64,000 nt of DNA, taken from positions 3,895,570 to 3,959,569 of the forward strand of contig NZ_CP042906.1 of the NCBI RefSeq assembly GCF_008728855.1, read 5' to 3'. Shown here piece after piece: positions 1 to 52,320 of the stretch (its first letter is position 1; each line of letters begins with the position of its first letter). The notes under the pieces were generated by a model. The model saw only the letters and a program-made list of their open reading frames with translations. It did no database searches and had not been told where the DNA came from. The position numbers and the translations under genes were made by a program. Source of the stretch: Hypericibacter terrae (GTDB lineage: Bacteria > Pseudomonadota > Alphaproteobacteria > Dongiales > Dongiaceae).

Positions 1-2
1 TG

Positions 3-170
3 CTCGAGATGCTGGCCCAGCGCCAGGAACTCGCCGTCTACCAGCATGGCGGCTTCTGGCAATGCATGGACACCTATCGCGAGATGTGTCTCCTCAACGA
101 GATGTGGGCCAAGGGCAATGCGCCCTGGCAGGTCTGGCAGGAATGCAGCGGCAATCGGCTCAGCGCCTAG
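3..170 (+). CDS. rfbF: Glucose-1-phosphate cytidylyltransferase, C-terminal fragment
   Basis: This is the last 55 codons of a gene entering from the left edge, open in frame from base 3 to the TAG at 168-170. The residues GGFWQCMDTYREM and the later GNAPWQVW match the conserved C-terminal end of RfbF-type nucleotidyltransferases, which make CDP-glucose from CTP and glucose-1-phosphate. The next gene is a CDP-glucose 4,6-dehydratase, the usual partner, and overlaps it by 28 bases, which supports both the assignment and translational coupling. The start and catalytic domain lie outside the window. Confidence 0.8.
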   Translation, partial: LEMLAQRQELAVYQHGGFWQCMDTYREMCLLNEMWAKGNAPWQVWQECSGNRLSA

Positions 171-1222
171 ATCCCGACTTCTGGCGCAACCGGCGCGTTC
201 TGGTCACCGGCCATACCGGCTTCACCGGCGGCTGGCTCAGCCTGTGGCTCGCCCATATGGGCGCCAAGGTCACCGGCTATGCGCTGACATCCCAGACACC
301 GTCGCTGTTCGCCTCGCTCGAGCTCGAGCGCGACCTGATCTCCAACATTGCCGATCTCGGCGACCGCACCATGCTGGAGAGCGCCGTGCGTGTGGCGCGG
401 CCCGAGATCGTGATCCATCTCGCGGCCCAGGCGCTTGTGCGCCAGGCCCACGCGACCCCGGTCGAGACCTTCGCCACCAACGTCATGGGCACGGTCAACC
501 TGCTCGAGGCCCTGCGCGGAGTCGACAGCGTCCAGGCGGTCGTGGCGGTCACCTCCGACAAGGTCTATCTCAACCGCGGCCTCAAGCGCGGCTATCACGA
601 GGACGATCCGCTCGGCGGGCGCGAGCCCTACAGCGCCAGCAAGGCCTGCGCCGAAATCGTCGTCGAGGCCTATCGCCATTCCTATTTCGGCACCAACGGC
701 CCGGCGATCGCCACGGCGCGCGCGGGCAACATCGTCGGCGGCGGCGACTGGGCGCTGGACCGGCTGGTACCCGACGCCGTGCGCGCCTTCGAGGCCGGCA
801 ATGCGCTGCGGATCCGCAATCCCAACGCGACGCGCCCCTGGCAGCATGTGCTGGAGGCCGCCTGCGGCTACCTGACCCTGGCCGAGCGCCTGGTCGAGCA
901 GCCCGAGGTAAATGCCGGCGGCTGGAATTTCGGGCCCAATCACGACGACAACAAGTCGGTCGCCTGGATCGCCGACCAGATGACGAAACTCTGGGGACAT
1001 GGCGCCGCCTGGCATCTCGAGAACCGCCAGGACGCACCGTTCGAGGAGCAGCTGCTCGCGGTCAATGCCGACAAGGCGGCGAGCCAGCTCGGCTGGCGCA
1101 CGCGCTGGAATGTCGAGGAAGCGCTGCAGCGCACCGTCCCCTGGTACCGCGCCCAACTCGGCGATCGCCCCATGCGACGCCTGTCACTCGACCAGATCGA
1201 GGAATATGCCGATGCTGCCTAG
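143..1222 (+). CDS. rfbG: CDP-glucose 4,6-dehydratase
   Basis: A 359-residue extended short-chain dehydrogenase, the usual RfbG length. It converts CDP-glucose to CDP-4-dehydro-6-deoxyglucose, the branch point to CDP-linked deoxysugars. Visible features are the NAD-binding glycine motif TGHTGFTGGWL near residues 22-32, VTSDKVY at the active-site Thr, and the catalytic YSASK motif near residues 164-168. The ATG at 143 is chosen because it gives the family length and starts just before the conserved DFWRNRRVLVTG stretch; the frame is open upstream to 62, but those codons overlap rfbF. It overlaps the rfbF end and runs into the methyltransferase gene, so it is part of one operon. Confidence 0.88.
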   Translation: MQRQSAQRLDPDFWRNRRVLVTGHTGFTGGWLSLWLAHMGAKVTGYALTSQTPSLFASLELERDLISNIADLGDRTMLESAVRVARPEIVIHLAAQALVRQAHATPVETFATNVMGTVNLLEALRGVDSVQAVVAVTSDKVYLNRGLKRGYHEDDPLGGREPYSASKACAEIVVEAYRHSYFGTNGPAIATARAGNIVGGGDWALDRLVPDAVRAFEAGNALRIRNPNATRPWQHVLEAACGYLTLAERLVEQPEVNAGGWNFGPNHDDNKSVAWIADQMTKLWGHGAAWHLENRQDAPFEEQLLAVNADKAASQLGWRTRWNVEEALQRTVPWYRAQLGDRPMRRLSLDQIEEYADAA

Positions 1223-2495
1223 CTCGATGCGACTGAAGGCGAAGCGCGACCCGCGCTCTGCCCCGGAGAGCCTGCCCAGCTGCCGCTTCTGCGGCTCGCC
1301 GCTGGCCCATCTGTTCGTGGATCTGGGCGCCCAGCCGCCCTCGAACGCCTATCTCGACGCGGCGGCGCTGGGCCGCATGGAAGCGACCTTCCCGCTCAAG
1401 GCGCATGTCTGCGAGCGCTGCTTCCTGGTCCAGCTCGAGGCGTTCCAGACGCCCGACGAGATCTTCGGCCATTACGCCTATTTCTCCTCCTTCTCCCAGA
1501 GCTGGCTCGATCATGCCCGGCGTTATGCGACCCATGCGATCGAGCGCTTCAAGCTCGGGGCCGAGAGCCAGGTCGTCGAGATCGCCAGCAATGACGGCTA
1601 TCTGCTGCAATATTTCCGTGGCGCCGGCATCCCGGTCCTGGGCGTGGAACCGGCGGAGAATGTCGCCGCCGTCGCGCGCGGCCGCGGGATCGCGACCGTC
1701 AGCCTGTTCTTCGGCCGCGAGACCGCGCGTCAGCTGGTGCGCGAGGGCCGTCAGGCCGACCTCCTGATCGGCAACAATGTCTTCGCGCATGTGCCCGATC
1801 TCAACGATTTCACGGCAGGCCTCGCGATCGCGCTCAAGCCGACCGGCACGCTCACCCTCGAATTCCCGCATCTGCTGCGGCTGATCGAGGATTGCCAGTT
1901 CGACACCATCTATCACGAGCACTTCTCCTATTTCTCGTTGACCACCGCCGAGAAGGTGCTGGCGGCGCACGACCTGACAGTGACCGACGTCGAGGAGCTG
2001 CCGACCCATGGCGGCTCGCTGCGGATCTATGCGCAGCATCGCGGCACGGCGCTCCCGAGCGCCGCCGTCGTCGCGTTGCGCCAGCGAGAGGCCAAGTCCG
2101 GCATCATCGACATCTCGGCCTATCGCGGCTTTGCCGAGCGCACCGCGAAGGTGAAGCGCGAGCTGCTGCGCTTCCTGATCGATGCCAAGGAATCGGGCAA
2201 GCATGTCGTCGGCTACGGCGCCGCGGCCAAGGGCAACACGCTCCTCAATTGCTGCGGCATCGGCGGCGATCTGCTCGACTATGTCGTCGATCTGAGCCCG
2301 CACAAGCAGGGCCGTTATCTGCCTGGCAGCCGGCTCCCGGTCCATGCGCCCGATATGCTGGCGCAGACCCGGCCCGACTATGTGCTGATCCTGCCCTGGA
2401 ACCTGGCACCGGAGATCGAGCAGTCGATGGGTCATATCCGCGAATGGGGCGGGCGCTTCGTGACCGCGATTCCGCGTCTCGCCGTGCGGCCATGA
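1212..2495 (+). CDS. NDP-sugar C-methyltransferase (zinc-binding, SAM-dependent)
   Basis: About 427 residues with the three-part layout of deoxysugar C-methyltransferases such as TylC3. An N-terminal zinc site is formed by CRFCG and CERC pairs, a class I SAM-binding fold follows with VVEIASNDGYLLQYF, and the C-terminal third contains the conserved GYGAAAKGNTLLN. The family adds a methyl group, usually at C3 of a 4-keto-6-deoxy sugar nucleotide, to make a branched-chain sugar. The ATG at 1212 is preferred because GAGGA lies 8 bases upstream; ATG 1206 and 1227 are alternatives. It overlaps rfbG by 11 bases and the next gene by 4. Substrate CDP-4-dehydro-6-deoxyglucose is inferred from the neighbours. 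Confidence 0.82.
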   Translation: MLPSSMRLKAKRDPRSAPESLPSCRFCGSPLAHLFVDLGAQPPSNAYLDAAALGRMEATFPLKAHVCERCFLVQLEAFQTPDEIFGHYAYFSSFSQSWLDHARRYATHAIERFKLGAESQVVEIASNDGYLLQYFRGAGIPVLGVEPAENVAAVARGRGIATVSLFFGRETARQLVREGRQADLLIGNNVFAHVPDLNDFTAGLAIALKPTGTLTLEFPHLLRLIEDCQFDTIYHEHFSYFSLTTAEKVLAAHDLTVTDVEELPTHGGSLRIYAQHRGTALPSAAVVALRQREAKSGIIDISAYRGFAERTAKVKRELLRFLIDAKESGKHVVGYGAAAKGNTLLNCCGIGGDLLDYVVDLSPHKQGRYLPGSRLPVHAPDMLAQTRPDYVLILPWNLAPEIEQSMGHIREWGGRFVTAIPRLAVRP

Positions 2496-3049
2496 TCTTT
2501 CAGGAGATCGGCCTCGCCGGCGCCTATCTGATCGATCCGGAGCCCTACCGCGACGAGCGCGGGCTGTTCGCGCGCACCTGGTCGGTCAAGGAGTTCCGCG
2601 AGCGCGGGCTGGCGACCGAGTTCGACCACTGCGCCACCTCCTTCAACAAGCTGCCCGGCACCTTGCGCGGCCTGCATTACCAGGCCGACGAGGAGCCGGA
2701 GACCAAGCTCATCCGCTGCACTCGCGGCCGGATCTTCGACGTGATCGTCGATCTGCGGCGGAGCTCGCCGACCTACCGGCAATGGTTCGGGACCGAGCTC
2801 AACCAGGACAACCGCCGCCTGGTCTATGCGCCGGCCGGATTCGCCCATGGCTATCAGAGCCTCGGGCCCGATTCCGAAGTCTTCTACCAGATCGCCGCCA
2901 ATTTCCGTCCCGACCTGCAGCGGGGCCTGCGCTGGGACGATCCCACCCTGGCGATCAAATGGCCGCAGGCCCGCGCGCGCATCATCTCGGCGCGCGATCT
3001 CGCGCTGCCCCATCTCGCCAGCATGCCCGAGGCGGTATGTACACCGTAG
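2492..3049 (+). CDS. dTDP-4-dehydrorhamnose 3,5-epimerase-like (RmlC family)
   Basis: A 185-residue cupin of the RmlC/RfbC family. Family hallmarks are FNKLPGTLRGLHYQ with the catalytic His, KLIRCTRGRIFDVIVDLR in the barrel, and YAPAGFAHGYQSL. These enzymes epimerise C3 and/or C5 of 4-keto-6-deoxy sugar nucleotides. The ATG overlaps the preceding stop as ATGA, so translation is coupled. Next to a CDP-glucose dehydratase and a C-methyltransferase it probably acts on the methylated CDP-4-keto intermediate rather than on dTDP-4-keto-rhamnose. That substrate is inferred from context; the family is clear. Confidence 0.85.
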   Translation: MIFQEIGLAGAYLIDPEPYRDERGLFARTWSVKEFRERGLATEFDHCATSFNKLPGTLRGLHYQADEEPETKLIRCTRGRIFDVIVDLRRSSPTYRQWFGTELNQDNRRLVYAPAGFAHGYQSLGPDSEVFYQIAANFRPDLQRGLRWDDPTLAIKWPQARARIISARDLALPHLASMPEAVCTP

Positions 3050-3855
3050 TCGGCCCCCACGGCTTCATCGGCTCGCATCTGACGCGTTACCTGACCCGGA
3101 CGCGCAAGGTGGCCCCCTTCACGCCCGAGAAAGGCAGTCCTGCCCTGTTCTCGCGGCCGCTGGGCCATGTCTTCTATTGCGCGGGCCTCACCAACGACTT
3201 CCTGAAGCGGCCCCTCGATACCGTCGAAGCCCATGTCACGCTGTTCGCGCGGCTGCTCAAGGAGGCCGCCTTCGAGAGCATGACCTATCTCTCCTCGACC
3301 CGGCTCTATGACAGCGGCGGCCCGGTCGGGAACGAGGAGGACACGCTCGAGCTCAATCCCAACGAGCCGCGCCATCTCTACGATCTGAGCAAGGCGCTGG
3401 GCGAGAATCTCTGCCAGACCGCGGGGCGCAAGAATGTCCGCGCCGTGCGGCTTTCCTGCGTTTACGCCGAAGATCTCGAAGCCGACATCTTCCTGCATCG
3501 CGCGATCCTCGCCGCCCGGCAGGGCGGCCCGCTTGAAATGGATGTGAGCCCCGACGCGGCGCGCGACTATGTCCATATCGAGGATGTGCTGCCGCTGTTG
3601 CTCGCCATTGCCGAACGCGGCCGGCGGCCGCTCTATAATGTCGCCAGCGGCGCCAACGTCGCCAATGCGGACCTCTTCAAGCTGCTCTTCCGCCTGACCG
3701 GCTGGCAACTGGTCGCCACGCGGCTGTCTTCCGGCGAAGAGGCGCCGACAATCGACGTCTCGGCCATTGTCGAGGATTTCGACCTGCGCCCCAAATTCCT
3801 CCACGACCGGCTGCCCGCCATGATGCGCCAGAAGCCCACCCTTGGCGCGGCCTGA
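3037..3855 (+). CDS. NAD-dependent epimerase/dehydratase, probable NDP-4-keto-sugar reductase
   Basis: A 272-residue extended SDR. The N-terminal nucleotide-binding motif GPHGFIGSHL (about residues 6-15) is a slightly relaxed GxxGxxG. LSSTRLYDSG carries the active-site Ser/Thr and YDLSKALGE is the catalytic YxxxK. The ATG at 3037 is the first start after which the protein reads as a complete Rossmann fold, and it overlaps the epimerase gene by 13 bases. In a pathway with dehydratase, methyltransferase and epimerase, the missing step is reduction of the C4 ketone, so this is the best candidate for the final reductase. The exact sugar is unknown. Confidence 0.75.
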   Translation: MYTVVGPHGFIGSHLTRYLTRTRKVAPFTPEKGSPALFSRPLGHVFYCAGLTNDFLKRPLDTVEAHVTLFARLLKEAAFESMTYLSSTRLYDSGGPVGNEEDTLELNPNEPRHLYDLSKALGENLCQTAGRKNVRAVRLSCVYAEDLEADIFLHRAILAARQGGPLEMDVSPDAARDYVHIEDVLPLLLAIAERGRRPLYNVASGANVANADLFKLLFRLTGWQLVATRLSSGEEAPTIDVSAIVEDFDLRPKFLHDRLPAMMRQKPTLGAA

Positions 3856-3861
3856 GGCGCC

Positions 3862-4506
3862 ATGGAGCTCGCCGGCATCACGCGCGACGGGCTGGCCGAC
3901 TATCTGGCCCGCCAGCTCGATCATTTCTTCCCGGACGGCGCCGAGACCCGCGCCGGCATCGCGCGCGACCTGGGCGAGGCGCTGGGCCGGCTCAACCGCT
4001 GTATCAACGCCGTGAAGATGTGGCCGCAGGATCGCTTCCACTATCTCCATTCCGAGCAGAACACGATCTTCCTGGCCTATCTCGCCAACACGGTCTGGCG
4101 CAACCGGCAGGACGCGACGCTCGCGACCAAGCTGTTCTATCTCAACAAGACGCTGAACGGCTTCCACTGCTTCTACGACACCGACCTGCCCGAACGCTTC
4201 TTCGTCGGCCATTCGCTGGGCATCGTGCTGGTGCGGCTCAAATACCCGGAATATTTCGCGATCTACCAGAACTGCACGGTCGGCAAGAACCATGGCGCGG
4301 CCCCCGTGCTCGAGGAGGGCATCGTGATGTATCCGGGCAGCGCCATCATCGGCGACTGCCATGTCGGCGCCCGCAGCTATATCGCGCAAGGCTGCTCCCT
4401 GATCGACGCCGACAGCCCCGGCAACTGCCTGGTCTTCAACGCCGACCGCAAGCCCGTCTTCAAGACCTCCAAGCAGGACATCCTGGCCGACCTGTTCCGG
4501 CTCTGA
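3862..4506 (+). CDS. Hexapeptide-repeat (LbH) O-acyltransferase, serine acetyltransferase-like
   Basis: A 214-residue protein with a helical N-terminal half and a C-terminal left-handed beta-helix seen in the repeats around NCTVGKNHGA, EGIVMYPGSAIIGDCHVGARSYIAQGC. The layout resembles CysE-type acetyltransferases, but its position at the end of a deoxysugar operon (7 bases after the reductase) suggests sugar or sugar-nucleotide O-acetylation. His in VGKNHGA is a plausible catalytic residue. A role in cysteine synthesis is unlikely because no sulfur gene is nearby. Confidence 0.7.
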   Translation: MELAGITRDGLADYLARQLDHFFPDGAETRAGIARDLGEALGRLNRCINAVKMWPQDRFHYLHSEQNTIFLAYLANTVWRNRQDATLATKLFYLNKTLNGFHCFYDTDLPERFFVGHSLGIVLVRLKYPEYFAIYQNCTVGKNHGAAPVLEEGIVMYPGSAIIGDCHVGARSYIAQGCSLIDADSPGNCLVFNADRKPVFKTSKQDILADLFRL

Positions 4507-4617
4507 ACTGGTGCCAGGCTGGCCTCCCTGGTGCCTCCCGGCACAACTGAGTGCCCTTTGTCCGCCCCGGCCGCCCCTCTAGACTTGGCGGGTCCAGCCT
4601 GCCGGGAGAGGTGACCC

Positions 4618-5769
4618 ATGATCCCACGCGATAGCGCAGAGCCGGCGACGATGCCGGCCTCGCTGCAGCATTTCGACCGCGACCCGCTGCGCTCGCGCAG
4701 CATGCCGGGCCGCTACTACTATGACCCCGGCATCTGGGAGCGCGAGAAGCGGGCGATCTTCCACCGCACCTGGCAATATGTCGGCCACCGCTCGATGCTG
4801 CCCAACCCCGGCAGCTATATCGTGCGCGAGATCGCCGGCCAGAGCGTGCTGCTGCTCAAGGACCGCGAGGGCCAGATCCGGGCCTTCTTCAATGTCTGCC
4901 AGCATCGCGCCCATCGCCTGCTCGAAGGCGAGGGCCGGCTCAATGCCGCGGTCATCACCTGCCCCTATCATGCCTGGGCCTATGACCTCGCCGGCATGCT
5001 GCGCAATGCCCGCGGCAGCGAGAAGATGGCCGACTTCGACAAGACGCAATTCTCGCTGGAGCCGGTGCGGCTCGATTCCTTCCTGGGCTTCCTCTTCGTC
5101 AATCTCGACGGCCAGGCGGAGCCCTTCGCCAAGGTGGCGGGCGGGCTGGCGGCCGAGCTGGCCAGCTTCTCGCCCCAGGCCGCCGACCTCAAATGCGTCT
5201 ATCGGCGCGACTATCCGCTGCAGGCCAATTGGAAGAACTCGGTCGAGAACTTCTCCGAATGCTTCCATTGCCCGATCTCGCACAAAACGCTGGTCGAGGG
5301 TGCGCTCGATTATCCCTCCTATCGCGTGACGACCCACGAGCATCACCACAGCCATCGCAGTCGCGACAAGGGTCCCAACCAGGGTTATGGCACCCGAACC
5401 GAGCAGGCGGCCAAGCAGAACGAGTTCGGCAGCTGGCTGCTCTGGCCCAACTGGTGCATCGAGGTCTATCCGGGCGGCAATCTGACGGTGTTCCATCACG
5501 TGCCCGTCGGTCCCGAGCAGACGATCCAGAAGGTCGAATGGTACTTCCCCAACGATCCGCCGACGCGCGAGGAGCAGGAAGTCATCGACTTCGTCCATGG
5601 CGTGCGGCTCGAGGACATCCCCATCTGCGAGAGCGTGCAGCAGGGCCAGCACAGCCTGGGATACCGCCAGGGCCGCTTCGTCGTCGACGCCGAACGCTCG
5701 GAGATCAGCGAGCATGCGGTGCACGACTTCCAAGTGAAGGTGCTGCGCGCGCTGGGGGATATCGGGTGA
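4618..5769 (+). CDS. Rieske [2Fe-2S] non-haem iron oxygenase, alpha subunit
   Basis: A 383-residue ring-hydroxylating/demethylating oxygenase. The N-terminal Rieske domain has Cys94-x-His96 and Cys115-Pro-Tyr-His118. The catalytic domain carries the mononuclear iron site in ENFSECFHCPISHKT, with the two His ligands. The WKNSVEN/ECFHC pattern is closest to the CntA/GbcA group, which oxidise N-methyl quaternary amines, more than to aromatic dioxygenases; this is recalled similarity, not a search result. GGGAGAGGTGACCC precedes the ATG. No ferredoxin reductase or beta subunit lies next to it, so electrons must come from elsewhere. It is followed by a palindromic repeat and an SDR gene in the same direction. 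Confidence 0.82.
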   Translation: MIPRDSAEPATMPASLQHFDRDPLRSRSMPGRYYYDPGIWEREKRAIFHRTWQYVGHRSMLPNPGSYIVREIAGQSVLLLKDREGQIRAFFNVCQHRAHRLLEGEGRLNAAVITCPYHAWAYDLAGMLRNARGSEKMADFDKTQFSLEPVRLDSFLGFLFVNLDGQAEPFAKVAGGLAAELASFSPQAADLKCVYRRDYPLQANWKNSVENFSECFHCPISHKTLVEGALDYPSYRVTTHEHHHSHRSRDKGPNQGYGTRTEQAAKQNEFGSWLLWPNWCIEVYPGGNLTVFHHVPVGPEQTIQKVEWYFPNDPPTREEQEVIDFVHGVRLEDIPICESVQQGQHSLGYRQGRFVVDAERSEISEHAVHDFQVKVLRALGDIG

Positions 5770-5779
5770 CGCTCAGATT

Positions 5780-5859
5780 GTCATCCCCGCGAAAGCGGGG
5801 ACCCATCTTGATCCAACGCGTTGAGTTGAGACATGGGCCCCCGCTTTCGCGGGGGTGAC
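5780..5859. repeat. Interspersed palindromic repeat, copy 1
   Basis: Two 27-base inverted arms (5780-5806 and 5833-5859) match at 25 of 27 positions around a 26-base spacer. The core is CCCCGCGAAAGCGGGG. A second copy with the same arms and a 27-base spacer lies at 15664-15743. It sits 11 bases after the Rieske gene and could fold into a long hairpin in RNA. Confidence 0.85.
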
Positions 5860-5921
5860 GATGGCGGTGCCTCTCCCCGCGACTGTGGCGCAGAGAAGAC
5901 TGGCAATGGGAGTTCCGAGCT

Positions 5922-6680
5922 GTGTCACGCCTGAAAAACAAGATCGCGATCATCACCGGCGGGTCGCGGGGGATCGGGCGGGCGATCGTGGCGCGGTTTC
6001 TGGCGGAGGGCGCCACGGTCGTCACCGCCGCGCGCAGCGAGCCGGAGACGTCCTGGCCCAGGACCCCGCAACTGCAGTGGCTGCAGGCCGACGTCTCGAA
6101 GGCCGTGGACGTCGAAGACCTCTTCGCCACGGCCGAGCGCGCCGGCGGCGTCGATATCCTCGTCAACAATGCGGGCCTTCAGCTCGAGCGCACGATCGAG
6201 CACACCTCCGAGGAAGAATGGGACCGCGTCATGGCGGTCAATCTCAAATCGGTGTTCCTCTGCAGCCGCGCCGCGATCCCGGCGATGCGCCGGCGCGGCG
6301 GCGGGTCGATCGTCAATATCGGCTCCTATGACGGCTTCGTGGCCGATCCCAATCTCGCCGCCTATTGCGCCTCGAAAGGCGGCGTCCATGCGCTGAGCCG
6401 CGCGGTCGCGGTCGATCACGGGCGCGACGGGATCCGCTGCAACGCGATCTGCCCCGGCTGGATCGAGACCGACATGCTGGAGGCCTATTACCGGAGCCTG
6501 CCCGATCCCGCGGCGGCCCGGGCGCGCATCGCCCAGATCCACCCCGCCGGCCGCACCGGCCGGCCGGAGGACATCGCCAACCTCGCGCTCTGGCTCGCCT
6601 CCGACGAGGCGGCTTTCGTCACCGGCCAGCTCTTCACCGCCGATGGCGGCCTCACCGCCCAGGCGCCGCAGCCGCGCTGA
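5922..6680 (+). CDS. Short-chain dehydrogenase/reductase (SDR)
   Basis: A 252-residue classical SDR. TGGSRGIG near residues 12-19 binds the cofactor, NNAG is present, and the catalytic Ser (VNIGSYDG) and YCASK (Tyr/Lys) are intact, so it should be an active NAD(P)H-dependent alcohol/ketone oxidoreductase. The start is GTG at 5922 with GGGAG 9 bases upstream. The C-terminal FVTGQLFTADGG is typical. It lies downstream of the Rieske gene and may process its product, but the interposed repeat means co-transcription is uncertain. The substrate cannot be read from the sequence. Confidence 0.82.
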   Translation: MSRLKNKIAIITGGSRGIGRAIVARFLAEGATVVTAARSEPETSWPRTPQLQWLQADVSKAVDVEDLFATAERAGGVDILVNNAGLQLERTIEHTSEEEWDRVMAVNLKSVFLCSRAAIPAMRRRGGGSIVNIGSYDGFVADPNLAAYCASKGGVHALSRAVAVDHGRDGIRCNAICPGWIETDMLEAYYRSLPDPAAARARIAQIHPAGRTGRPEDIANLALWLASDEAAFVTGQLFTADGGLTAQAPQPR

Positions 6681-42483: not shown

Positions 42484-42903
42484 CTATCGCCGGCGGCGAT
42501 GAAGCTCCATGCCGATTTCATCTTCGCGTATGCGCTCGCGCCGCTTGATCTCGGCCTGCTTGCGCTCTTCGCGACTCTTCAATGCCTGTTCGTATTTCTC
42601 GAGCTCGCGATAGACCTCGAGCACGGCCTCGCGCGCCTGTTCGATCCGGAAGGTGACGTCGGCCTGCGAACGCACCAGCTTCTCGCGCCGCATCCGGGCG
42701 AGATCGGCGAAGGCGGCGAAGGCGCGTGACAGCTCCAGCGTCTTGTGTTCCTTGGTGGCGGCCGCCTCGCGCTCGACGGACTCGTCGAGCGTCCTGATCT
42801 GGTCGTTCAGCCGCTCGGCCAGGCGCTGCAGCTCGCCCATCTTCCGGCGCTCTTCCTCGAGGCGCCAGCGATGGAGCCGGACCAGTTGATCGACCGCGCT
42901 CAT
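42484..42903 (-). CDS. fliJ: Flagellar export chaperone FliJ
   Basis: A 139-residue, highly charged, almost entirely helical coiled-coil protein ([50 protein letters not shown]). This composition and length are typical of FliJ, which links the FliI ATPase to FlhA and recycles export chaperones. It overlaps the fliI stop as ATGA. Sequence conservation in FliJ is weak, so the call rests on composition, length and the fliI neighbour. Confidence 0.85.
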
Positions 42904-44351
42904 GCGGCCCTCGCGCCGGCGGCGGGTTTGGTGGCGGATTTAACCGCGGGCTTTGCCGCGGGTGCCGGTGCGGGCGCAGCGGCGGCCGGGGCCGCTGCCT
43001 TGGCGGCCAGGATCTCCTCCAGCGCGCGGTAGCAGCCGGCGAGGCTCGCCTTCTCGGTCTTGCCCTGCTTGAGGAAGCTCTCGAGCTGCTCGTGATAGCG
43101 GATCGCCTCGTCGACCTCGGGATCGCTCCCGGCGCGATAGGCGCCGAGCCGGATCAGCTCGGCCATGTTCTCATAGGTCGCCATCAGCCGGCGCGCCTTG
43201 CTGACGACCGCGTTCTCTTCGTCATTGTTGCAGCCGGGCATGGTGCGCGACAGGCTTCGCAGGATATCGACCGCCGGATAGCGTCCGCGCGCGGCGATGT
43301 TGCGGTCGAGCACGATATGGCCGTCGAGGATGCCGCGCACCGCGTCGGCGATCGGCTCGTTGTGATCGTCGCCCTCCACCAGCACGGTGAAGAGGCCGGT
43401 GATGCTACCGGTCCCGGTGCCGGGCCCCGCGCGCTCGAGGAGGCGCGGCAGCTCGGCGAAGACCGACGGGGTATAGCCCTTGGAGGCCGGCGGCTCGCCG
43501 GCGCTGAGGCCGATCTCGCGCATGGCCATGGCGAAGCGCGTGACGCTGTCCATCAGGCAGAGCACGTCATGGCCCTGGTCGCGGAAGAACTCGGCCATCG
43601 ACAGGGTCAGATGGGCCGCCTGGCGCCGCATCAGGGGCGGCTCGTCCGAGGTCGCCACTACAACCAGCGAGCGAGCCAGACCCTCGGGGCCCAGGTCGTC
43701 CTCAAGGAATTCCTGCACCTCGCGGCCGCGCTCGCCGATCAGGCCGATCACGTTAACGTCGGCCGTGGTGTAGCGCGCCATCATGGAGAGAAGGACAGAT
43801 TTGCCGACCCCGGAGCCCGCGAAGATGCCCATGCGCTGGCCGCGGCAGCAGGTCAGGAAGGTGTTGATCGCCTTGACGCCCAGGTCGACCTTGCCGGCCA
43901 CCCGCTTGCGGGCATGGGCCGGCGGCGGCGAGGCGCGCAGCGGATAGCCGCGGGCGCCCGGCATGAGCGGCCCCTTGCCGTCGATCGGCTCGCCGAAGGC
44001 ATTGACGACGCGGCCGAGCCAGCTGGGGGCCGGGCGGATGGCAGGCTCGCTGTCGGCGAGCTCCACCTTGCAGCCCAGCCCGATGCCCTCCAGGCCGCCG
44101 AAGGCCATCGCCAGGGCCCGATCATTACGGAAACCCACAACCTCGCAGGGCACCCGCCGGCCGGCCTGGCCCAGCAGGTCGCAGCGCGCGCCGACCGAGA
44201 GATGGCGGGCGATCCCCCCCACCTCGACCAGCATGCCCAGCAGGGATGCCACCCGCCCATAGAGCCGGGCGGAGGGCAAACGTGCAATTTCTTCAAGGAG
44301 GTAGCTCAGGTCGGCGGTGCCGGTCCCGGCCGTGGCAGTTTGAGAATTCAT
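42900..44351 (-). CDS. fliI: Flagellum-specific ATPase FliI
   Basis: A 483-residue F1-like ATPase that powers flagellar type III export. Walker A is [20 protein letters not shown] near residue 175; Walker B is [21 protein letters not shown]; and [14 protein letters not shown] and [21 protein letters not shown] are family-specific. The C-terminal 40 residues are an Ala/Pro/Lys-rich extension not needed for the fold. It is divergent from ctrA across 178 bases and begins the fliI-fliJ operon. It is separated from the main flagellar block by the metabolic island. Confidence 0.95.
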
Positions 44352-44465: not shown

Positions 44466-44500
44466 TTAATAAACTCGCGCCACATTGGTTAATAGGTTAA
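44466..44500 (+). promoter_or_regulatory. TTAA-rich putative control region of ctrA
   Basis: TTAA occurs at 44466, 44489 and 44497 (GGTTAATAGGTTAACC), 30-64 bases before the ctrA start. CtrA half-sites are TTAA(C), so autoregulation is plausible, but no pair has the exact 7-base spacing. Confidence 0.35.
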
Positions 44501-44529
44501 CCTGGTCTCAACGGCGACAGAGGCTACCA

Positions 44530-45255
44530 ATGCGCGTACTCCTGATTGAAGACGACACCACAGTGGCCCAATCGATTCAGCTCATGCTGAAGTCCGAAGG
44601 CTTCGTCGTAGATGCAACCGACATGGGCGAAGACGGCCTCGAGATCGGTAAGCTTTATGACTACGACATTATCCTTCTGGATCTCATGCTGCCCGACATC
44701 GAGGGCTACGAGGTTCTGCGCCGGCTCCGCGCGGCGCGCGTCAACACGCCGATCCTGATTCTTTCGGGCCTCGGCGAGCTCGACAACAAGATCAAAGGTC
44801 TCGGCTTCGGCGCCGACGACTATCTCACCAAGCCCTTCGACAAACGTGAACTGATCGCAAGAATCCAGGCGATCGTCCGTCGCTCGCGCGGCCATAGCGA
44901 CTCCGTGATCCTCACCGGCAAGCTCAAGGTCAATCTCGACACGCGTACCGTCGAGGTCGAGGCCCAGCCGCTGCATCTCACCGGCAAGGAATATGGCATC
45001 CTCGAGCTGTTGAGCCTGCGCAAGGGCACGACGCTCACCAAGGAGATGTTCCTGAATCATCTCTATGGCGGCATGGACGAGCCGGAGCTGAAGATCATCG
45101 ACGTGTTCGTCTGCAAGCTGCGCAAGAAGCTCTCGGCCGCGACCGGCGGCGACAACTACATCGAAACCGTCTGGGGCCGCGGCTATGTGCTGCGCGATCC
45201 GGTGGAACCCGCCAACGAGACCCTGGCCCGGCGCCCGGCTGCTGCCAGCGCCTGA
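44530..45255 (+). CDS. ctrA: Cell-cycle master response regulator CtrA
   Basis: A 241-residue OmpR-type response regulator. The receiver (1-120) has the acidic pair in LLIEDD, phospho-acceptor Asp in [21 protein letters not shown] and the Lys in [24 protein letters not shown]. The winged-helix DNA-binding domain includes [52 protein letters not shown], near-invariant in CtrA. ATG 44530 gives the normal length; the frame is open further upstream. CtrA controls replication and division in Caulobacter and motility or flagellar genes in most alphaproteobacteria. chpT and sciP in the same window encode its phosphodonor and inhibitor. Confidence 0.96.
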
Positions 45256-45425: not shown

Positions 45426-46271
45426 TCATCCCGCCGCGGCGATGCGTGCCTGTTCGCTCTTCGGCACCACCCCATAGACGCCGCGCTGGCCGTTGATGAG
45501 CTTGAAGCGCTCGGTCAGGCCCAGCACCGTCTCGGCGCCGCCGAGGAAGAGGAAGCCGTCCTCGGGCATCAGGTTGGCGATGCGGTCGAGCACCTTGGCC
45601 TTCGTGTCCTGGTCGAAATAGATCAGCACGTTGCGGCAGTAGACCACATCGAAGCGACCGAGCACCGTGGGGTCGGTCAGGAGGTTGAACTCGCGATAAT
45701 CGACCATCGAGCGGATCTTCGGGCTGATCTGCCAGCGATCGCCGGACTGGGCGAAATACTTCACCAGCAGAGTCACCGGCAGGCCGCGCTGCACCTCGAA
45801 CTGCGAATAGACGCCTTCCTTGGCGCGCGCCAGAATTTCGGAGGAGAGGTCGGTGGCGACGATCTCGATGGTCCAGCCCGCGAGCTGCGCCGCCATTTCC
45901 GAGAGGATCATGGCGAGCGAATAGGGCTCCTGGCCGGAGGAACAGGCGGCGCTCCAGATCCGCAGGCGGCGCTGGCCGGTGCGGTTCTTGAGCATCGCCG
46001 GCAGGACCAGCTCCTTGAACTGGTCGAACGGCTTGATGTCGCGGAAGAAGAAGGACTCGTTCGTGGTCATGGCTTCGACCACGTCGCGGATCAGGGCCTC
46101 GTCCGGCTTGCTGCGGAGCGACTTCACCAGGTCCTCGAACCCGGCGAGCTTCCACTTGCGCGCCACCGGCAGGAGGCGGCTCTCCATCAGATAAGCCTTG
46201 TCCGGCGAGAGCACCAAGCCCGAGCGTTGGCGCAGCAGCCGGCAGATCATATCGAAATCGTCGCGGTTCAT
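45426..46271 (-). CDS. cheR: Chemotaxis protein methyltransferase CheR
   Basis: A 281-residue SAM-dependent methyltransferase that methylates glutamates of chemoreceptors. The N-terminal helical domain (MNRDDFDMICRLLRQRSGLVLSPDKAYLMESRL) is followed by AMTTNESFFFRD, the SAM-binding IWSAACSSGQEPYSLAMIL, and FDVVYCRNVLIYFDQDTK. The start at 46271 overlaps the cheB stop as ATGA. It is the last gene of the che operon, before a terminator. Confidence 0.94.
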   Translation of the reverse strand: MNRDDFDMICRLLRQRSGLVLSPDKAYLMESRLLPVARKWKLAGFEDLVKSLRSKPDEALIRDVVEAMTTNESFFFRDIKPFDQFKELVLPAMLKNRTGQRRLRIWSAACSSGQEPYSLAMILSEMAAQLAGWTIEIVATDLSSEILARAKEGVYSQFEVQRGLPVTLLVKYFAQSGDRWQISPKIRSMVDYREFNLLTDPTVLGRFDVVYCRNVLIYFDQDTKAKVLDRIANLMPEDGFLFLGGAETVLGLTERFKLINGQRGVYGVVPKSEQARIAAAG

Positions 46272-47410
46272 GCTGCTGACCTCATTGCGAGCCGGCGCAG
46301 ATAGGGAGCGATCTCGGGCAAAGGCAGCACCGCGCTGCAAAGCCCCGTCTTCGCCACCGCGCCGGGCATGCCCCAGACCACACTGGTAGCCTCATCCTGA
46401 GCCACGACCGAGCCCCCCGCGGCAACCACCGTGGAGGCGCCCTTCTGGCCATCGGAACCCATGCCGGTCAGGATCAGCACCATACAGCGCGCGCCATAAG
46501 CGGCGGCGACGCTGCGCAGCATGGGATCCACGGCCGGTCGGCAGAAATTCTCGGGCGCGGTCTTCACCAGACGGATGATCTTCTTCCCGTCCTCGATCGC
46601 CACCGTCATATGGATGTCGCCGGGCGCCACATAGATGCGGCCCCGCATGACCGGCTCGCCGTCGCGGGCTTCGGCCGTCGGAATCTTGCTGGCCTGGGCG
46701 ATATGCTCGGCCAGGATCGCCGTGAAGGTCGCCGGCATATGCTGGGTGACCAGGATCGGCAGGTCGGACTTGCCACCCAGCCCGCCCAGTACCTTGAAGA
46801 GCGCCTGGGGGCCGCCGGTCGAGCTGCCGATGGCCAGGATCTCCGGCTGGAGGGTCGCCTCGGGGCGCAGCTTGAGGGGTACCGGCGGGCCCGCGGGCGC
46901 GGCCGGCGCGGTCCGGCGGGCCGGCGTCGGCGCCGCATTGGCGCTCTCCGGATGCTTGCGCCGGTAGACCTGGCCCAGTTCCTTGACCTTCGAGGTCAGC
47001 TCGCGCTTGAAGCTCTCGGCCGTCACCAGCTCCGACGAGCTGGGCTTGGCCACGTAGTCGGCGGCTCCGGCCGCCAGCGCCTGGAGGCTGATATCGGCGT
47101 TGCGCCGGGTCAGGGTCGAGGCCATCACCACCTGGAGGCCCGGCCTGGCGGCCAGGAGCTTCGGCAGGGCGGTGATGCCGTCCATGACCGGCATCTCGAT
47201 ATCAAGGACGACGACCTCGACGTTCGAGCGGCCGACGATGTCGACCGCCATCTGGCCGTTGCTGGCCGAATGGACGACCTTGATGCCGGCGTCGGCCTCG
47301 AGCGCCTTCGAAATCAAACCGCGGATCACGGCCGAGTCGTCCACGACCATGACCCGCACGGGTTGGGTGCGGGATTCGGCCGGCGGGGCGATGGGGGAAA
47401 TCAGTGTCAT
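46268..47410 (-). CDS. cheB: Protein-glutamate methylesterase CheB
   Basis: A 380-residue two-domain protein. The receiver (about 15-135) has VMVVDDSAVIRG, Asp in VVVLDIEMPVMDG and KPSSSE. The methylesterase domain (about 190-375) carries the catalytic Ser in IGSSTGGPQAL, His in LVTQHMPATFTAILAEHIAQ and Asp in ILTGMGSDGQKGA. The linker is Ala/Pro-rich. CheB removes methyl groups from receptors and adapts the chemotactic response when phosphorylated by CheA. It lies 21 bases after cheY and overlaps cheR. Confidence 0.95.
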   Translation of the reverse strand: MTLISPIAPPAESRTQPVRVMVVDDSAVIRGLISKALEADAGIKVVHSASNGQMAVDIVGRSNVEVVVLDIEMPVMDGITALPKLLAARPGLQVVMASTLTRRNADISLQALAAGAADYVAKPSSSELVTAESFKRELTSKVKELGQVYRRKHPESANAAPTPARRTAPAAPAGPPVPLKLRPEATLQPEILAIGSSTGGPQALFKVLGGLGGKSDLPILVTQHMPATFTAILAEHIAQASKIPTAEARDGEPVMRGRIYVAPGDIHMTVAIEDGKKIIRLVKTAPENFCRPAVDPMLRSVAAAYGARCMVLILTGMGSDGQKGASTVVAAGGSVVAQDEATSVVWGMPGAVAKTGLCSAVLPLPEIAPYLRRLAMRSAA

Positions 47411-47431: not shown

Positions 47432-47797
47432 CTAGAGCAGGCCGACTTGATTGAACTTCGACTCGATGATCTCGCTGTCGAAGGGCTTCATGATGTATTC
47501 GTCGGCGCCGGCCGTGATCGCCTCCTGGATGTGCTTCAGGTCGTTCTCGGTGGTGCAGAACACCACGACCGGCTGCTTGGAACCGTCCATGCGGCGCAGG
47601 CCCTTCAGGAAATCCATGCCGTTCATGACCGGCATGTTCCAGTCGAGCAGGATCGCGTCGGGCATGGCGCGCTTGCAGATGTCCATCGCGGCCTGGCCGT
47701 TCTCGGCCTCCTCGATCTGAAAATTCAGGCTCTCGAGGATCTTTCGCGCGACCATTCGGACGACCTTCGAGTCATCCACGACGAGACAGCGCTTCAT
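47432..47797 (-). CDS. cheY: Chemotaxis response regulator CheY
   Basis: A 121-residue single-domain receiver. Key residues are visible: acidic pair in CLVVDDSKVVR, phospho-acceptor Asp in AILLDWNMPVMNG, Thr in VVFCTTEND, and Lys in YIMKPFD. Phospho-CheY would bind FliM and change flagellar rotation. It sits between cheW and cheB in the operon. The first residues, MKRCLVVDDSKVVRMVARKIL, are typical of alphaproteobacterial CheY proteins. Confidence 0.93.
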   Translation of the reverse strand: MKRCLVVDDSKVVRMVARKILESLNFQIEEAENGQAAMDICKRAMPDAILLDWNMPVMNGMDFLKGLRRMDGSKQPVVVFCTTENDLKHIQEAITAGADEYIMKPFDSEIIESKFNQVGLL

Positions 47798-47853: not shown

Positions 47854-48345
47854 TCAGGCCGCTTCCGCCTTGGCAAACTGCAACAGCTGGGAGACATCGA
47901 GGACCACCAGCAGCGAGCCGTTGAGGCGATAGATACCATCCGAAAAGTCGCGCCAGCGCGGGTCGAGCGTCGGCGGGTTGCGTTCATAGGCGGCGCCCTC
48001 GAGGCTCAGCACCTCGCCGACCGAATCGACGATCAGGCTGTAGAGCTCGCCGTTCTGCTCGACGACGATGCTCATCGAGTTCTGGCCCTTCTCGCGACGA
48101 TCGAGGCCGAGGCGCAGGCGCAGATCGATCGCCGTCACGATGCGGCCGCGCAGATTGAGCGACCCGGCCACTTCCTTCGGCGCCAGCGGAATGCGGGTGA
48201 TGCGCTGCGGGCCCAGCACGTCCTGGACCTTCAGGACCGGGATGCCGAACAGCTGGCCGGCGACGGTGAAGGAGACGAAGTCGTGCTGCCCCTCGCCGGT
48301 GCTCTTGCCGACGCTTTTGGAGGCTGTGGGAGTGGCGGCGTTCAT
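47854..48345 (-). CDS. cheW: Chemotaxis coupling protein CheW
   Basis: A 163-residue CheW that joins chemoreceptors to CheA. The core includes DFVSFTVAGQLFGIPVLKVQDVLGPQRITRIPLAPKEVAGSLNLRGRIVTAIDLRLRLGL and SIVVEQNGELYSLIVDSVGEVLSLEG. The N-terminal 20 residues are a Ser/Thr-rich tail. Its start overlaps the cheA stop as ATGA, so CheA and CheW are made in coupled amounts. Confidence 0.93.
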   Translation of the reverse strand: MNAATPTASKSVGKSTGEGQHDFVSFTVAGQLFGIPVLKVQDVLGPQRITRIPLAPKEVAGSLNLRGRIVTAIDLRLRLGLDRREKGQNSMSIVVEQNGELYSLIVDSVGEVLSLEGAAYERNPPTLDPRWRDFSDGIYRLNGSLLVVLDVSQLLQFAKAEAA

Positions 48346-51314
48346 GCGGCACCTTTGAGCTCGGAGAAGGCCTCGGACAGGGTCTGCAGCAGCGCATCGC
48401 GATCGAACTTGGCGACATAGTCGTCAAAGCCGACCTTGCGGCCGCGGGCGATGTCCTTGGGCGACGAATGGGAGGAAAGGGCGACCAGCGGCGTATCGCG
48501 CCAGCGCTCGTTCTTCTTCAGGGCCTCGGCGAACTCGAAGCCGCTCATGCCGGGCATCTCGATGTCGCTGATGATGACATCGTACTGCTCGCCCTGATCG
48601 CAGAGCTTCAGGGCCTGGTCGGCGCTCGACGCCGTCATCACATCGTAGCCGGCCGAGGACAGCAGCGGCGCGATCAGGTTGCGGAAGAACGGACTGTCGT
48701 CCACCAGCAGCAGGCGACGGCTGGTCTCCTCGCCGAACACGGCGTTCTTGTCGCCGAACCAATCGGCGAAGGCCTGGTTCAGGTAGTAGCCGGTATCGAT
48801 GATGTCGGTTGCCTTGCCGGCCACGATGGCGCTGCCGAGACGGCCGGGGTTCGCCGACGACAGCTCGACCTCGAGCCGGTCCTCGACGATATCGACGATC
48901 TCGTCCACCAGGAGGCCCATCGAACGCTGGCGGTCCGAGAACACCAGCACCGGCTGGCGGCCGTCGGCCGGCATCTCCATGCCCTCCTGCATCGCCACCA
49001 GCGGCATGAGCTGGCCGCGATACTGGACCATATGGCGGTCGTTCGAACGCTCGATCGTCTTGCGGTCGATCTCCTCGAGACGGGCCACCAGCGCCAGCGG
49101 AACGGCCTTGGGCGCCGCGGTTCCGGCGCGGAACAGGATCAACGGCACCTTCTCGCCGCTGTGGCCGTCGCGGACCTGGGCCTGCTCGGCCTGATCGCCA
49201 TGGGTCGCGTTGATCTGGCCCGACGCCGACGCGATGCCGTTCGGATCCAGGATCATGATCACGCTGCCGTCGCCGAGGATGGTGTTGCCGGAGAACATCG
49301 AGATGTCGCGCAGGATCGGCGCCACCGGCTTCACCACGATTTCCTCGGTGTCGAACACGCGGTCGACCATGATGCCAAAGGAGTAGGTGCCAACCTGGGC
49401 CACGACGATGAAACTGCCCTGGCCGGTCTGGTTCGCCTGCTCGTCGTTGCTGTCGAGCTTGAGCAGCTTGCGCAGCGAGACCAGCGGCAGGAGGCGGTTG
49501 CGCAGACGCAGGACCGGCGTGTCCTTGATCTGCTCGACGGTAGTGTCGGAGTTGGCGGCGGCGCGGACCAGCTCGACCACGCTGATCTGCGGGATCGCGA
49601 AGCGCTCGCCGGCGCACTCGACGATGAGCGCGGAGACGATCGCGAGCGTCAGCGGGATCTTGATGACGAAAGTGGTGCCGGAGCCTTCCGTCGAGCGCAT
49701 CTCGATGGTGCCGCCGATCTTCTCGATATTGGTGCGGACCACGTCCATCCCGACGCCGCGACCGGAGACGCTGGTCACCTTGGCGGCGGTGGAGAAGCCG
49801 GCCTTGAAGATGAACTGCTGGACCTGCTGCAGGCTCATCTCGGCCAGCTCGGCCTCGGAGGCAAGCCCGTTCTGCAGGGCCTTCGCCTTGATCTTGTCGG
49901 TCGAGAGGCCCTTACCGTCATCGGCAATCTCGATGATGATATGGCCGCCCTCGTGATAGGCGTTCAGGGTGATCTTGCCGGTATCGTTCTTGCCGGCGCG
50001 GCGACGCTCCTCCGGGGTCTCGAGGCCATGGTCCGCCGAATTGCGCACCATGTGCGTCAGCGGATCCTTGATCATCTCGAGCACCTGGCGATCGAGCTCC
50101 GTCTCGGCGCCCAGCATCACCAGATCGATCTTCTTGCCGCATTCCAGCGAGAGGTCGCGGACCAGGCGCGGCAGCTTCGACCAGGCGTTGCCGATCGGCT
50201 GCATGCGGGTCTTCATCACGCCTTCCTGAAGCTCGGAGGTGACGTGATTGAGGCGCTGCAGCGGCGCGGCGAACGGGCTGTCCTTCTGCGTGCGCAGGAT
50301 CTGCAACACCTGGTTGCGGGTCAGCACCAGCTCGCTGACCATGGTCATCAGGTTCTCGAGCAGATCGACATTGACGCGGATCGACTGCTGCGCGACGGCG
50401 GATTCCTTCTTGTTCTCCTCGCTCTCGCCCTCGGCCTTGGCGGCCGGCCTGGCCGTCGCCTTGGGTGCCGGCGCCGGCTTTGCCGGCGCTTCGGCGGCCG
50501 GTGCCTCCAGCACCTCGGCGCGCAGGCCGGCGACCAGGGTCAGGATCTCGGCGCGGGTCGCGGCCGCGACCTCGAGCGTCGTCAGCGAGGCCTCGATATG
50601 ACCGAAGGCCGCATCGCAGAGGCTGTCGGTCAGGCCGCGCGCATTGAGATGCTGCTTGGCTTCCGGCAGGGCGGGACCCTTGTAGCTGTCGGGGCCGCCG
50701 GCCTTGTTCGAGAAGAACTCGCGCAGGTTGCCCTGCAGGACGTCGAGATTGACGCCTTCGAAGAAGGTCTTGAGGCGATCGTCGGCGGACGCGCGGCCGA
50801 CGAAGACCTCGACGACCGAATCGATCACCGACATGCCGCCGATGCGGTCGTAGAGCGACCCGCTCTTCGCCGATTTCGCCTCGGCCTTCGCCGGCTTCGG
50901 TTCGGCTTTCGGGGCCGCGACGGGCTTGGGCGCGGAGGCGCCGTCGGCGAGCGCATTGAGGCGCCGGATGAGATCGCTGTCGTCGCCCTCGGGCTCGGCA
51001 CCGGCTTCCTCGAGGGTCGCGGTCAGCGAGCGCACGCGGTCGAGACATTCCAGGATGATCGACACCGCTTCGGGCGTGACCTCGAGCTCGCCGTCGCGGA
51101 CCTTGCCGAGCACGTTCTCGCCCGCATGGGCGACGCGCTCGAGGCGGGGCAGACCGATGAAGCCGCAAGTGCCTTTGATCGTGTGCACGAGCCGGAAGAT
51201 GTTTCCGAGAAGCTCCGGATCGTTCGGATTCTGTTCGAGCTTGACCAGCTCGACGTCGAGAACGGCCAGGCTCTCGGTGGTCTCGGTCAAGAATTCGCGC
51301 AGCAAGTCGTCCAT
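48342..51314 (-). CDS. cheA: Chemotaxis kinase CheA with inserted truncated-haemoglobin domain
   Basis: A 990-residue hybrid kinase. Order: HPt domain (1-120) with His44 in HTIKGTCGF; an Ala/Lys/Pro linker; a globin-like domain (about 153-269) with SLYDRIGG, FFEGVN, REFFSNKAGGPDSYKG and QHLNARGLTDSL; a second linker; dimerisation and HATPase core with VDLLENLMTMVSELVLTRN, HMVRNSADHGLE, ADDGKGLS and GRGVGMDV; a CheW-like domain; a second, more diverged CheW-like domain; and a C-terminal receiver with LLLVDDSPFF and DVIISDIEMPGMSG. The globin replaces the usual P2 domain. ATG 51314 is chosen for the typical HPt start MDDLLREFL and an AAGGG upstream. The tail domains suggest phosphate-sink or adaptation functions. 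Confidence 0.93.
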   Translation of the reverse strand: MDDLLREFLTETTESLAVLDVELVKLEQNPNDPELLGNIFRLVHTIKGTCGFIGLPRLERVAHAGENVLGKVRDGELEVTPEAVSIILECLDRVRSLTATLEEAGAEPEGDDSDLIRRLNALADGASAPKPVAAPKAEPKPAKAEAKSAKSGSLYDRIGGMSVIDSVVEVFVGRASADDRLKTFFEGVNLDVLQGNLREFFSNKAGGPDSYKGPALPEAKQHLNARGLTDSLCDAAFGHIEASLTTLEVAAATRAEILTLVAGLRAEVLEAPAAEAPAKPAPAPKATARPAAKAEGESEENKKESAVAQQSIRVNVDLLENLMTMVSELVLTRNQVLQILRTQKDSPFAAPLQRLNHVTSELQEGVMKTRMQPIGNAWSKLPRLVRDLSLECGKKIDLVMLGAETELDRQVLEMIKDPLTHMVRNSADHGLETPEERRRAGKNDTGKITLNAYHEGGHIIIEIADDGKGLSTDKIKAKALQNGLASEAELAEMSLQQVQQFIFKAGFSTAAKVTSVSGRGVGMDVVRTNIEKIGGTIEMRSTEGSGTTFVIKIPLTLAIVSALIVECAGERFAIPQISVVELVRAAANSDTTVEQIKDTPVLRLRNRLLPLVSLRKLLKLDSNDEQANQTGQGSFIVVAQVGTYSFGIMVDRVFDTEEIVVKPVAPILRDISMFSGNTILGDGSVIMILDPNGIASASGQINATHGDQAEQAQVRDGHSGEKVPLILFRAGTAAPKAVPLALVARLEEIDRKTIERSNDRHMVQYRGQLMPLVAMQEGMEMPADGRQPVLVFSDRQRSMGLLVDEIVDIVEDRLEVELSSANPGRLGSAIVAGKATDIIDTGYYLNQAFADWFGDKNAVFGEETSRRLLLVDDSPFFRNLIAPLLSSAGYDVMTASSADQALKLCDQGEQYDVIISDIEMPGMSGFEFAEALKKNERWRDTPLVALSSHSSPKDIARGRKVGFDDYVAKFDRDALLQTLSEAFSELKGAA

Positions 51315-51513
51315 GAGGAAGCGCCCTTCAGATGGCCCCGATACATTCGGGGTCGTCGCGTCTGGCGCGGCCGAAGCCTTTCCCACCGAAAGGACCCGCC
51401 GCCAGCCATCCGTCACGCTCTCAGAAACTGCTTAAAAACCCATAAAGGCTTGAACTCGCGAAATGTTCGGGCCTGTCGGGGAAAGGCCGGCGCAACCGGC
51501 GGACAAAACAAGG

Positions 51514-51624: not shown

Positions 51625-52320
51625 TCAGGCCGACGGAATCCTGACTTCGAACAGCACCTCGCCCGGTGCCACGGCCTGCGGCTTCAGATGGGCGCCGAAG
51701 CGCGCGGCCAGCCGGCCGGCGAGATAGGCCTGCACGGTGCGCGGCGTGAGATCGTTGGGCGGCGTCTGGGCCGCAAGCGCGGCCGCTTCGTCGTCGGTGA
51801 GCTTCGCATCCGTCCCCATCGCCCGGACCACGAAACGGATCGCTCCCGCCTCGCCGGTCGTGAGCGCCAGAATCCGGCCGCCGCGCGGCAGCGCGTCGGC
51901 CGCCATCAGGATCATGTTGAGCAGCAATTTGCCGGCCCCCGCGGGCAGGGCCAGAGTCTCCGGGGACATCGACCAGTCGAGCTTCACGCGGCCGTCCTGG
52001 AACAGGCCCAGGGCGGCAGCCTGCGCCTCCTGCGGACGCACGATCTGATTGCCGGCATTGCCGAAGGCGAGCCTGAAGAACTGCACCAGCGCCGTCGCGC
52101 GCGCGGCCGACCGGCGCGCGAGACCGACAGCCTCCTCCTCCATCTGCGGACTTTCCGACAGGAGCTCGAGTCCGTTGGCAACGGCACTGATCGGGCCAAC
52201 CAGGTCATGGCAGAGGCGCGAGGCCAGAAAATCGGCGACCGTGAATTCGTTCACTGCGTGGGGATCCGTCGTCATGGGGTCGCTCGCTCGCGATTGGCTC
52301 TGGATTGGTTGTGCCAGCAT
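51625..52320 (-). CDS. chpT: Histidine phosphotransferase ChpT
   Basis: A protein of 231 residues (216 if the second ATG at 52275 is used). The first start has GGAG 5 bases upstream. The phosphoacceptor helix FLASRLCHDLVGPISAVANGLELL matches ChpT, with the His in CHDLVGP. The second half folds like a degenerate histidine-kinase ATP domain: KLLLNMILMAADALPRGG is recognisable, but the nucleotide-binding boxes are absent, as expected. In Caulobacter ChpT moves phosphate from CckA to CtrA and CpdR. ctrA is 7 kb away. It is divergent from a DUF3553 gene. Confidence 0.9.
   Translation of the reverse strand: MLAQPIQSQSRASDPMTTDPHAVNEFTVADFLASRLCHDLVGPISAVANGLELLSESPQMEEEAVGLARRSAARATALVQFFRLAFGNAGNQIVRPQEAQAAALGLFQDGRVKLDWSMSPETLALPAGAGKLLLNMILMAADALPRGGRILALTTGEAGAIRFVVRAMGTDAKLTDDEAAALAAQTPPNDLTPRTVQAYLAGRLAARFGAHLKPQAVAPGEVLFEVRIPSA

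Follow-up and report, generated by a model that had tools for sequence, protein, structure and literature searches.

The linker of the chemotaxis kinase CheA of Hypericibacter terrae contains a genuine group I truncated globin, which lies between the HPt domain and the dimerisation domain. The reading that we favour, with a probability of about 0.55, is that this was ancestrally a haem-binding module and is now a haem-free docking or spacing domain in this organism. Positions are given throughout in the numbering of the window, that is, the whole 64,000-nucleotide stretch of DNA that was analysed.

The globin domain and its place in a class F5 CheA

The cheA gene (48342..51416, minus strand, as are the domains of its product and the che and chpT-like genes described here) encodes a hybrid kinase of 1024 amino acids when read from a GTG, but translation more probably begins at an in-frame ATG (51314, MDDLLREF), which gives 990 amino acids; residues are numbered from the GTG unless indicated otherwise. 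The H-kinase_dim profile has one match in the whole genome, so that this is the sole CheA of the organism, and the genome encodes ten chemoreceptor signalling domains. The protein begins with an HPt domain (P1, 51027..51308, residues 37–130, Pfam Hpt 4.6e-17) carrying the HTIKG phospho-acceptor motif, and this is joined by an Ala/Pro/Lys-rich linker (linker 1, 50859..51026) to the globin (50511..50858). A second, Ala/Pro-rich linker (linker 2, 50391..50510) leads to H-kinase_dim (P3, 50208..50390, 9.7e-15), HATPase_c (P4, 49647..50066, 8.7e-19), a first CheW domain (P5, 49227..49631, matched by Pfam in two stretches), a second CheW domain (48732..49166, again in two stretches and with a segment match in orthologues) and a C-terminal receiver (REC, 48381..48710, Response_reg 2.3e-23). 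The HPt, Bac_globin, H-kinase_dim, HATPase_c, CheW and receiver matches all exceed the Pfam curated cut-offs. Two CheW domains and a receiver in the absence of P2 mark class F5 (PMC10782961), to which this protein belongs by its duplicated CheW, its C-terminal Response_reg and the lack of any Pfam match to a P2/CheY-binding domain at E-values up to 1.

The globin is encoded from 50858 down to 50511 and comprises residues 187–302 (about 153–268 when counted from the Met at 51314). It matches Pfam Bac_globin (PF01152) over profile positions 1–119 of 121 with an E-value of 5.9e-12 (46.3 bits, where the cut-off is 21), and in a phmmer search of the PDB the top match was Mycobacterium tuberculosis HbN (E 3.5e-19), followed by other group I truncated haemoglobins. 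An AlphaFold (AF2) model (pLDDT 81), built on an alignment of 13 sequences from the Dongiaceae, was used for a fold search in which the best matches were all truncated haemoglobins (Z 18–19), and superposition on HbN gave a TM score of 0.81 and an rmsd of 1.3 Å. An earlier note, made from the DNA letters alone, had read this segment as a group I truncated globin lying after HPt and before the kinase core, and had proposed both the profile search and the structural model; the three approaches agree with it, and it had placed the segment correctly. A chance resemblance or frame artefact is ruled out by the conservation of the domain in 16 of 17 Dongiaceae genomes and by its omega (dN/dS) of 0.25. 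Compared with trHbN (M. tuberculosis HbN, 1idr), the domain shares sequence, the 2-over-2 fold (TM about 0.8), the double-Gly motifs and the CD1 Phe, but it sits within CheA rather than being free, and other residues stand in the positions of F8 His, B10 Tyr and E11 Gln.

As the domain occupies the same place as P2 in E. coli CheA, it is necessary to consider whether it might be a helical spacer or a diverged P2 that is merely globin-like; a helical spacer common to ordinary P2 domains had been named in the earlier note as one outcome fatal to its assignment. This is so improbable that we regard it as excluded by the profile and fold matches: the Pfam globin match is full-length, Pfam finds no P2, the fold match reaches Z 18, and P2 is absent from the F5 orthologues whose linkers we compared (see also PMC10782961). 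For the same reason the description of the globin as standing 'in place of P2' holds for its position but not for replacement, since class F5 CheAs have none to replace. At the position of the globin, globin-less F5 orthologues mostly have a linker of 63–130 residues rich in Ala, Pro and Glu, and on this comparison of sequences the globin is an addition to the flexible HPt–P3 linker of the class. Class F5 CheAs of the Rhodospirillum centenum CheA1 type (PMC10782961) thus share with the window protein HPt, P3, P4, two CheW domains, the receiver and the lack of P2, and differ from it in the inserted globin.

The globin-less F5 linkers look disordered, and short shared motifs are present in 12 of 22 of them compared with 3 of 34 globin linkers, which suggests that the motifs and the globin may stand in for each other; this exclusion is not significant when relatedness is allowed for, with one independent pair on supported branches of the kinase tree. 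A motif like PGEVSLDELExxFxxxPGPDD is common to a number of globin-less F5 linkers (L103, L104, L106, L108, L115, L116 and others), and DEHGFVPVP to those of three other globin-less F5 CheAs. Such motifs may serve for docking and so take on the role of P2.

The gene after cheA is cheW (47854..48345), followed by cheY (47432..47797), cheB (46268..47410) and cheR (45426..46340), all identified as open reading frames and conserved in relatives. Upstream of cheA lies an open reading frame (51625..52320), syntenic in relatives, which we take, from recognising its sequence and with no profile search behind the name, to encode a chpT-like histidine phosphotransferase. The order chpT-cheA-cheW-cheY-cheB-cheR is shared with class F5 operons and is conserved across the Dongiaceae and most other globin CheAs, with departures from it in families f91, f102 and f123; chpT adjoining cheA is widespread among relatives. 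On its other flank the operon is bordered by a CtrA-like regulator (44485–45255), beyond which there is a FliI-like gene (42900–44351).

The haem pocket in this copy and in its relatives

The CD1 Phe of the window globin is kept (Phe219), but the other pocket residues are not. In the alignment census the B10 position is Val206 instead of Tyr (50799..50801), a replacement that had been seen in the earlier note (as Val172), and the E11 position is Leu231 instead of Gln (50724..50726); both Val and Leu are found in both members of the genus. The proximal His at F8 is replaced by Lys254 (50655..50657), with the register set by length-matched relatives (LPEAKQHL in the window against LRSAHAGL in L051), and F8 is again Lys in both genus members, the sister species reading PEAKRVL with no His. 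The residue previously proposed as haem ligand, His222, is His256 from the GTG (50649..50651); it lies two residues past F8 (Lys220 in the same numbering as His222) and is absent in the sister species, so that alignment register and sister species together exclude it as the proximal ligand. With F8 being Lys254 and this His both off-register and missing in the sister, direct sensing of O2, NO or CO by this copy, which had been one suggestion, is unlikely. The loss of F8 His, B10 Tyr and E11 Gln in the genus indicates that the domain is most likely haem-free; the last of the three options that had been put forward, a docking module that has lost haem, is the one that fits best.

A full Tyr/Phe/Gln/His pocket is present in five linker globins (L051, L052, L053, L056 and L058) from four families (f81, f91, f113 and f123), and for these proteins the idea that they bind haem and perhaps sense gas would be a reasonable one; they are the real candidates for gas-sensing kinases. 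The F8 His has been lost in the window genus (Lys), in Dongia and its nearest kin (where the segment is deleted), in f87, f104 and f138 (Phe), in one of the two copies in genome G241 (Leu) and in f181 and f184, and on the kinase tree the state of F8 requires about six changes with the domain kept. For the Dongia globin without its F-helix segment, the predicted structure is still that of a globin (pLDDT 87.6, TM 0.82 to HbN). Both states occur within G241, which carries one globin CheA with a full haem pocket (L052) and another with no F8 His (L069), allowing a within-genome comparison.

Truncated globins were also seen elsewhere in the array core. Two CheAs (L054, genome G074, 2454–6053, plus strand; L057, genome G096, 2–2620, minus strand) have a second truncated globin inside the first CheW domain, in both cases with the full Tyr/Phe/Gln/His pocket, and a CheW-globin fusion (L066, genome G391, 2179–3384, plus strand) carries a truncated globin at its C-terminus in which F8 looks like Ser. 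The second globins and the fusion make it probable that truncated globins became associated with the array core on more than one occasion.

Distribution and origin

The globin CheA was found in 16 of the 17 Dongiaceae genomes sampled, the exception being a fragmented assembly that is 94% complete. In one of the 16 (L081, genome G015) the cheA frame is in three pieces; L038 (Dongia mobilis bin) covers the same stretch, and the break is either a frameshift or an assembly error. Surveys of 385 alphaproteobacterial and 398 Pseudomonadota genomes with architecture checks, the counts from which are lower bounds, placed the HPt-globin-kinase arrangement, intact or degenerate, in at least 12 further alphaproteobacterial families among the sampled genomes (f59, f81, f87, f91, f95, f102, f104, f113, f123, f138, f181 and f184, of which f181 and f184 come from the phylum-wide Pseudomonadota sample). 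A search of other genomes for the HPt-globin-HATPase order, as had been advised, is therefore positive well outside the Dongiaceae. The globins of f138, f181 and f184 are degenerate: Pfam misses them where tested, and the CheA-globin profile alone scores (24.8–56.7 bits).

Among the long globin frames inspected from outside the Alphaproteobacteria in the 398 Pseudomonadota genomes, none was a CheA. Five such frames with a globin at the end (L122–L126) were rejected as they have no kinase domain, and several of these have the appearance of a lone globin preceded by stop-to-stop read-through. No relatives were found on viral contigs, and plasmid records hold stand-alone truncated haemoglobins, as far as their annotation shows.

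Globin presence needs eight changes on the kinase tree, and nearly all linker globins group together in the globin tree (83/95 support). A putative history of one old gain and many losses fits both trees best.

Selection, function and comparison with known systems

For the pair of species in the window genus, omega was 0.25 in the globin compared with 0.39 in linker 1, 0.62 in linker 2 and 0.015–0.13 in the remaining domains. These values point to purifying selection on the globin that is weaker than that on the kinase parts, and part of its higher omega relative to the kinase domains may represent relaxed selection. In the Dongia clade that has the F helix deleted, omega for the globin was 0.03 and 0.17 in two pairs. 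Three residues, Gln228, Lys216 and Glu282, are over-represented in CheA globins with or without the F8 His (27 of 35 compared with 0, 1 and 2 of 15 others), although these counts ignore kinship among sequences that are related and in many cases from the Dongiaceae.

The globin most likely bound haem at the time of its insertion into the linker, given that the full set of B10 Tyr, CD1 Phe, E11 Gln and F8 His survives in at least four families. Haem would then have been lost in this genus along with F8 His (to Lys), B10 Tyr and E11 Gln, and since the fold has been kept under purifying selection we infer that what was retained is a compact docking or spacing module. Such a module could fix the spacing between HPt and the kinase core, and its surface may bind a partner, for which CheY, CheB and a neighbouring array protein are candidates. 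A precedent for a globin fold that signals without haem is RsbR of the stressosome (PMC6614362 and others), although this is a precedent only, involving another globin family and another host protein.

Two other explanations of the same domain have to be weighed. The domain may have been a gas or redox sensor ancestrally, and still be so in the families with complete pockets, but be decaying here with little or no function left; the complete pocket residues in f81, f91, f113 and f123, the repeated loss of F8 His and a rate of evolution that is higher in the globin than in HPt or P5 would all be expected if this were so. We consider it unlikely, if still a serious contender, as the omega of 0.25 and the retention of the domain in 16 of 17 Dongiaceae genomes point to a kept function and even the F-helix-deleted Dongia domain is constrained (0.03 and 0.17). 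It is distinctly improbable that the window globin still binds haem via Lys254 or His256, senses O2, NO, CO or redox state and sets kinase activity accordingly. In its favour, both genus members share Lys254, a candidate non-canonical ligand, the domain retains its fold and the CD1 Phe, and the full pocket occurs in relatives. Against it stand the replacement of three pocket residues (F8 His, B10 Tyr and E11 Gln), the position of His256 two residues away from F8 together with its absence from the sister species, and the complete deletion of the F helix in other lineages. The haem-free docking or spacing domain is thus the reading that we retain for this organism. It may be part of a wider picture, which we offer tentatively and at somewhat less than even odds, of an alphaproteobacterial CheA family that carries a truncated haemoglobin in the linker as a built-in sensor of gas or redox state, some members having a second in or fused to CheW, such that the kinase core of the array would sense gas directly without a receptor, and with several lineages, including this one, having turned the domain to haem-free docking.

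CheA is regarded as lacking an intrinsic sensor domain and as depending on receptors (PMC10782961). The presence within CheA of a globin with haem-pocket residues, seen in several families, turns the direct sensing of gas or redox state by the array core into a testable proposition, and the gradation that runs from a full pocket to loss of the F helix is a natural experiment in how a haem sensor becomes a haem-free signalling part. A 2023 survey of 13,673 CheAs does not mention a globin in its main text (PMC10782961). The earlier note knew of no characterised chemotaxis kinase of this kind, and likewise we found no published account of a globin CheA in the open-licence literature. Domain-database architecture pages probably list the arrangement already, as Pfam detects most copies.

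A functional parallel, a globin in chemosensory or two-component signalling, is provided by the globin-coupled sensors (HemAT, protoglobin type), which have 3-over-3 sensor globins placed N-terminally in receptors or kinases, whereas here a truncated globin is inside the kinase. Protoglobin (PF11563) has no match in this CheA or anywhere else in the genome. The genome's one other PF01152 match (L002, about 1433–1908, plus strand) looks from its sequence like a group III globin; the neighbouring frame, judged by eye, looks like an Rrf2/NsrR-type repressor, an arrangement as in nitric oxide defence.
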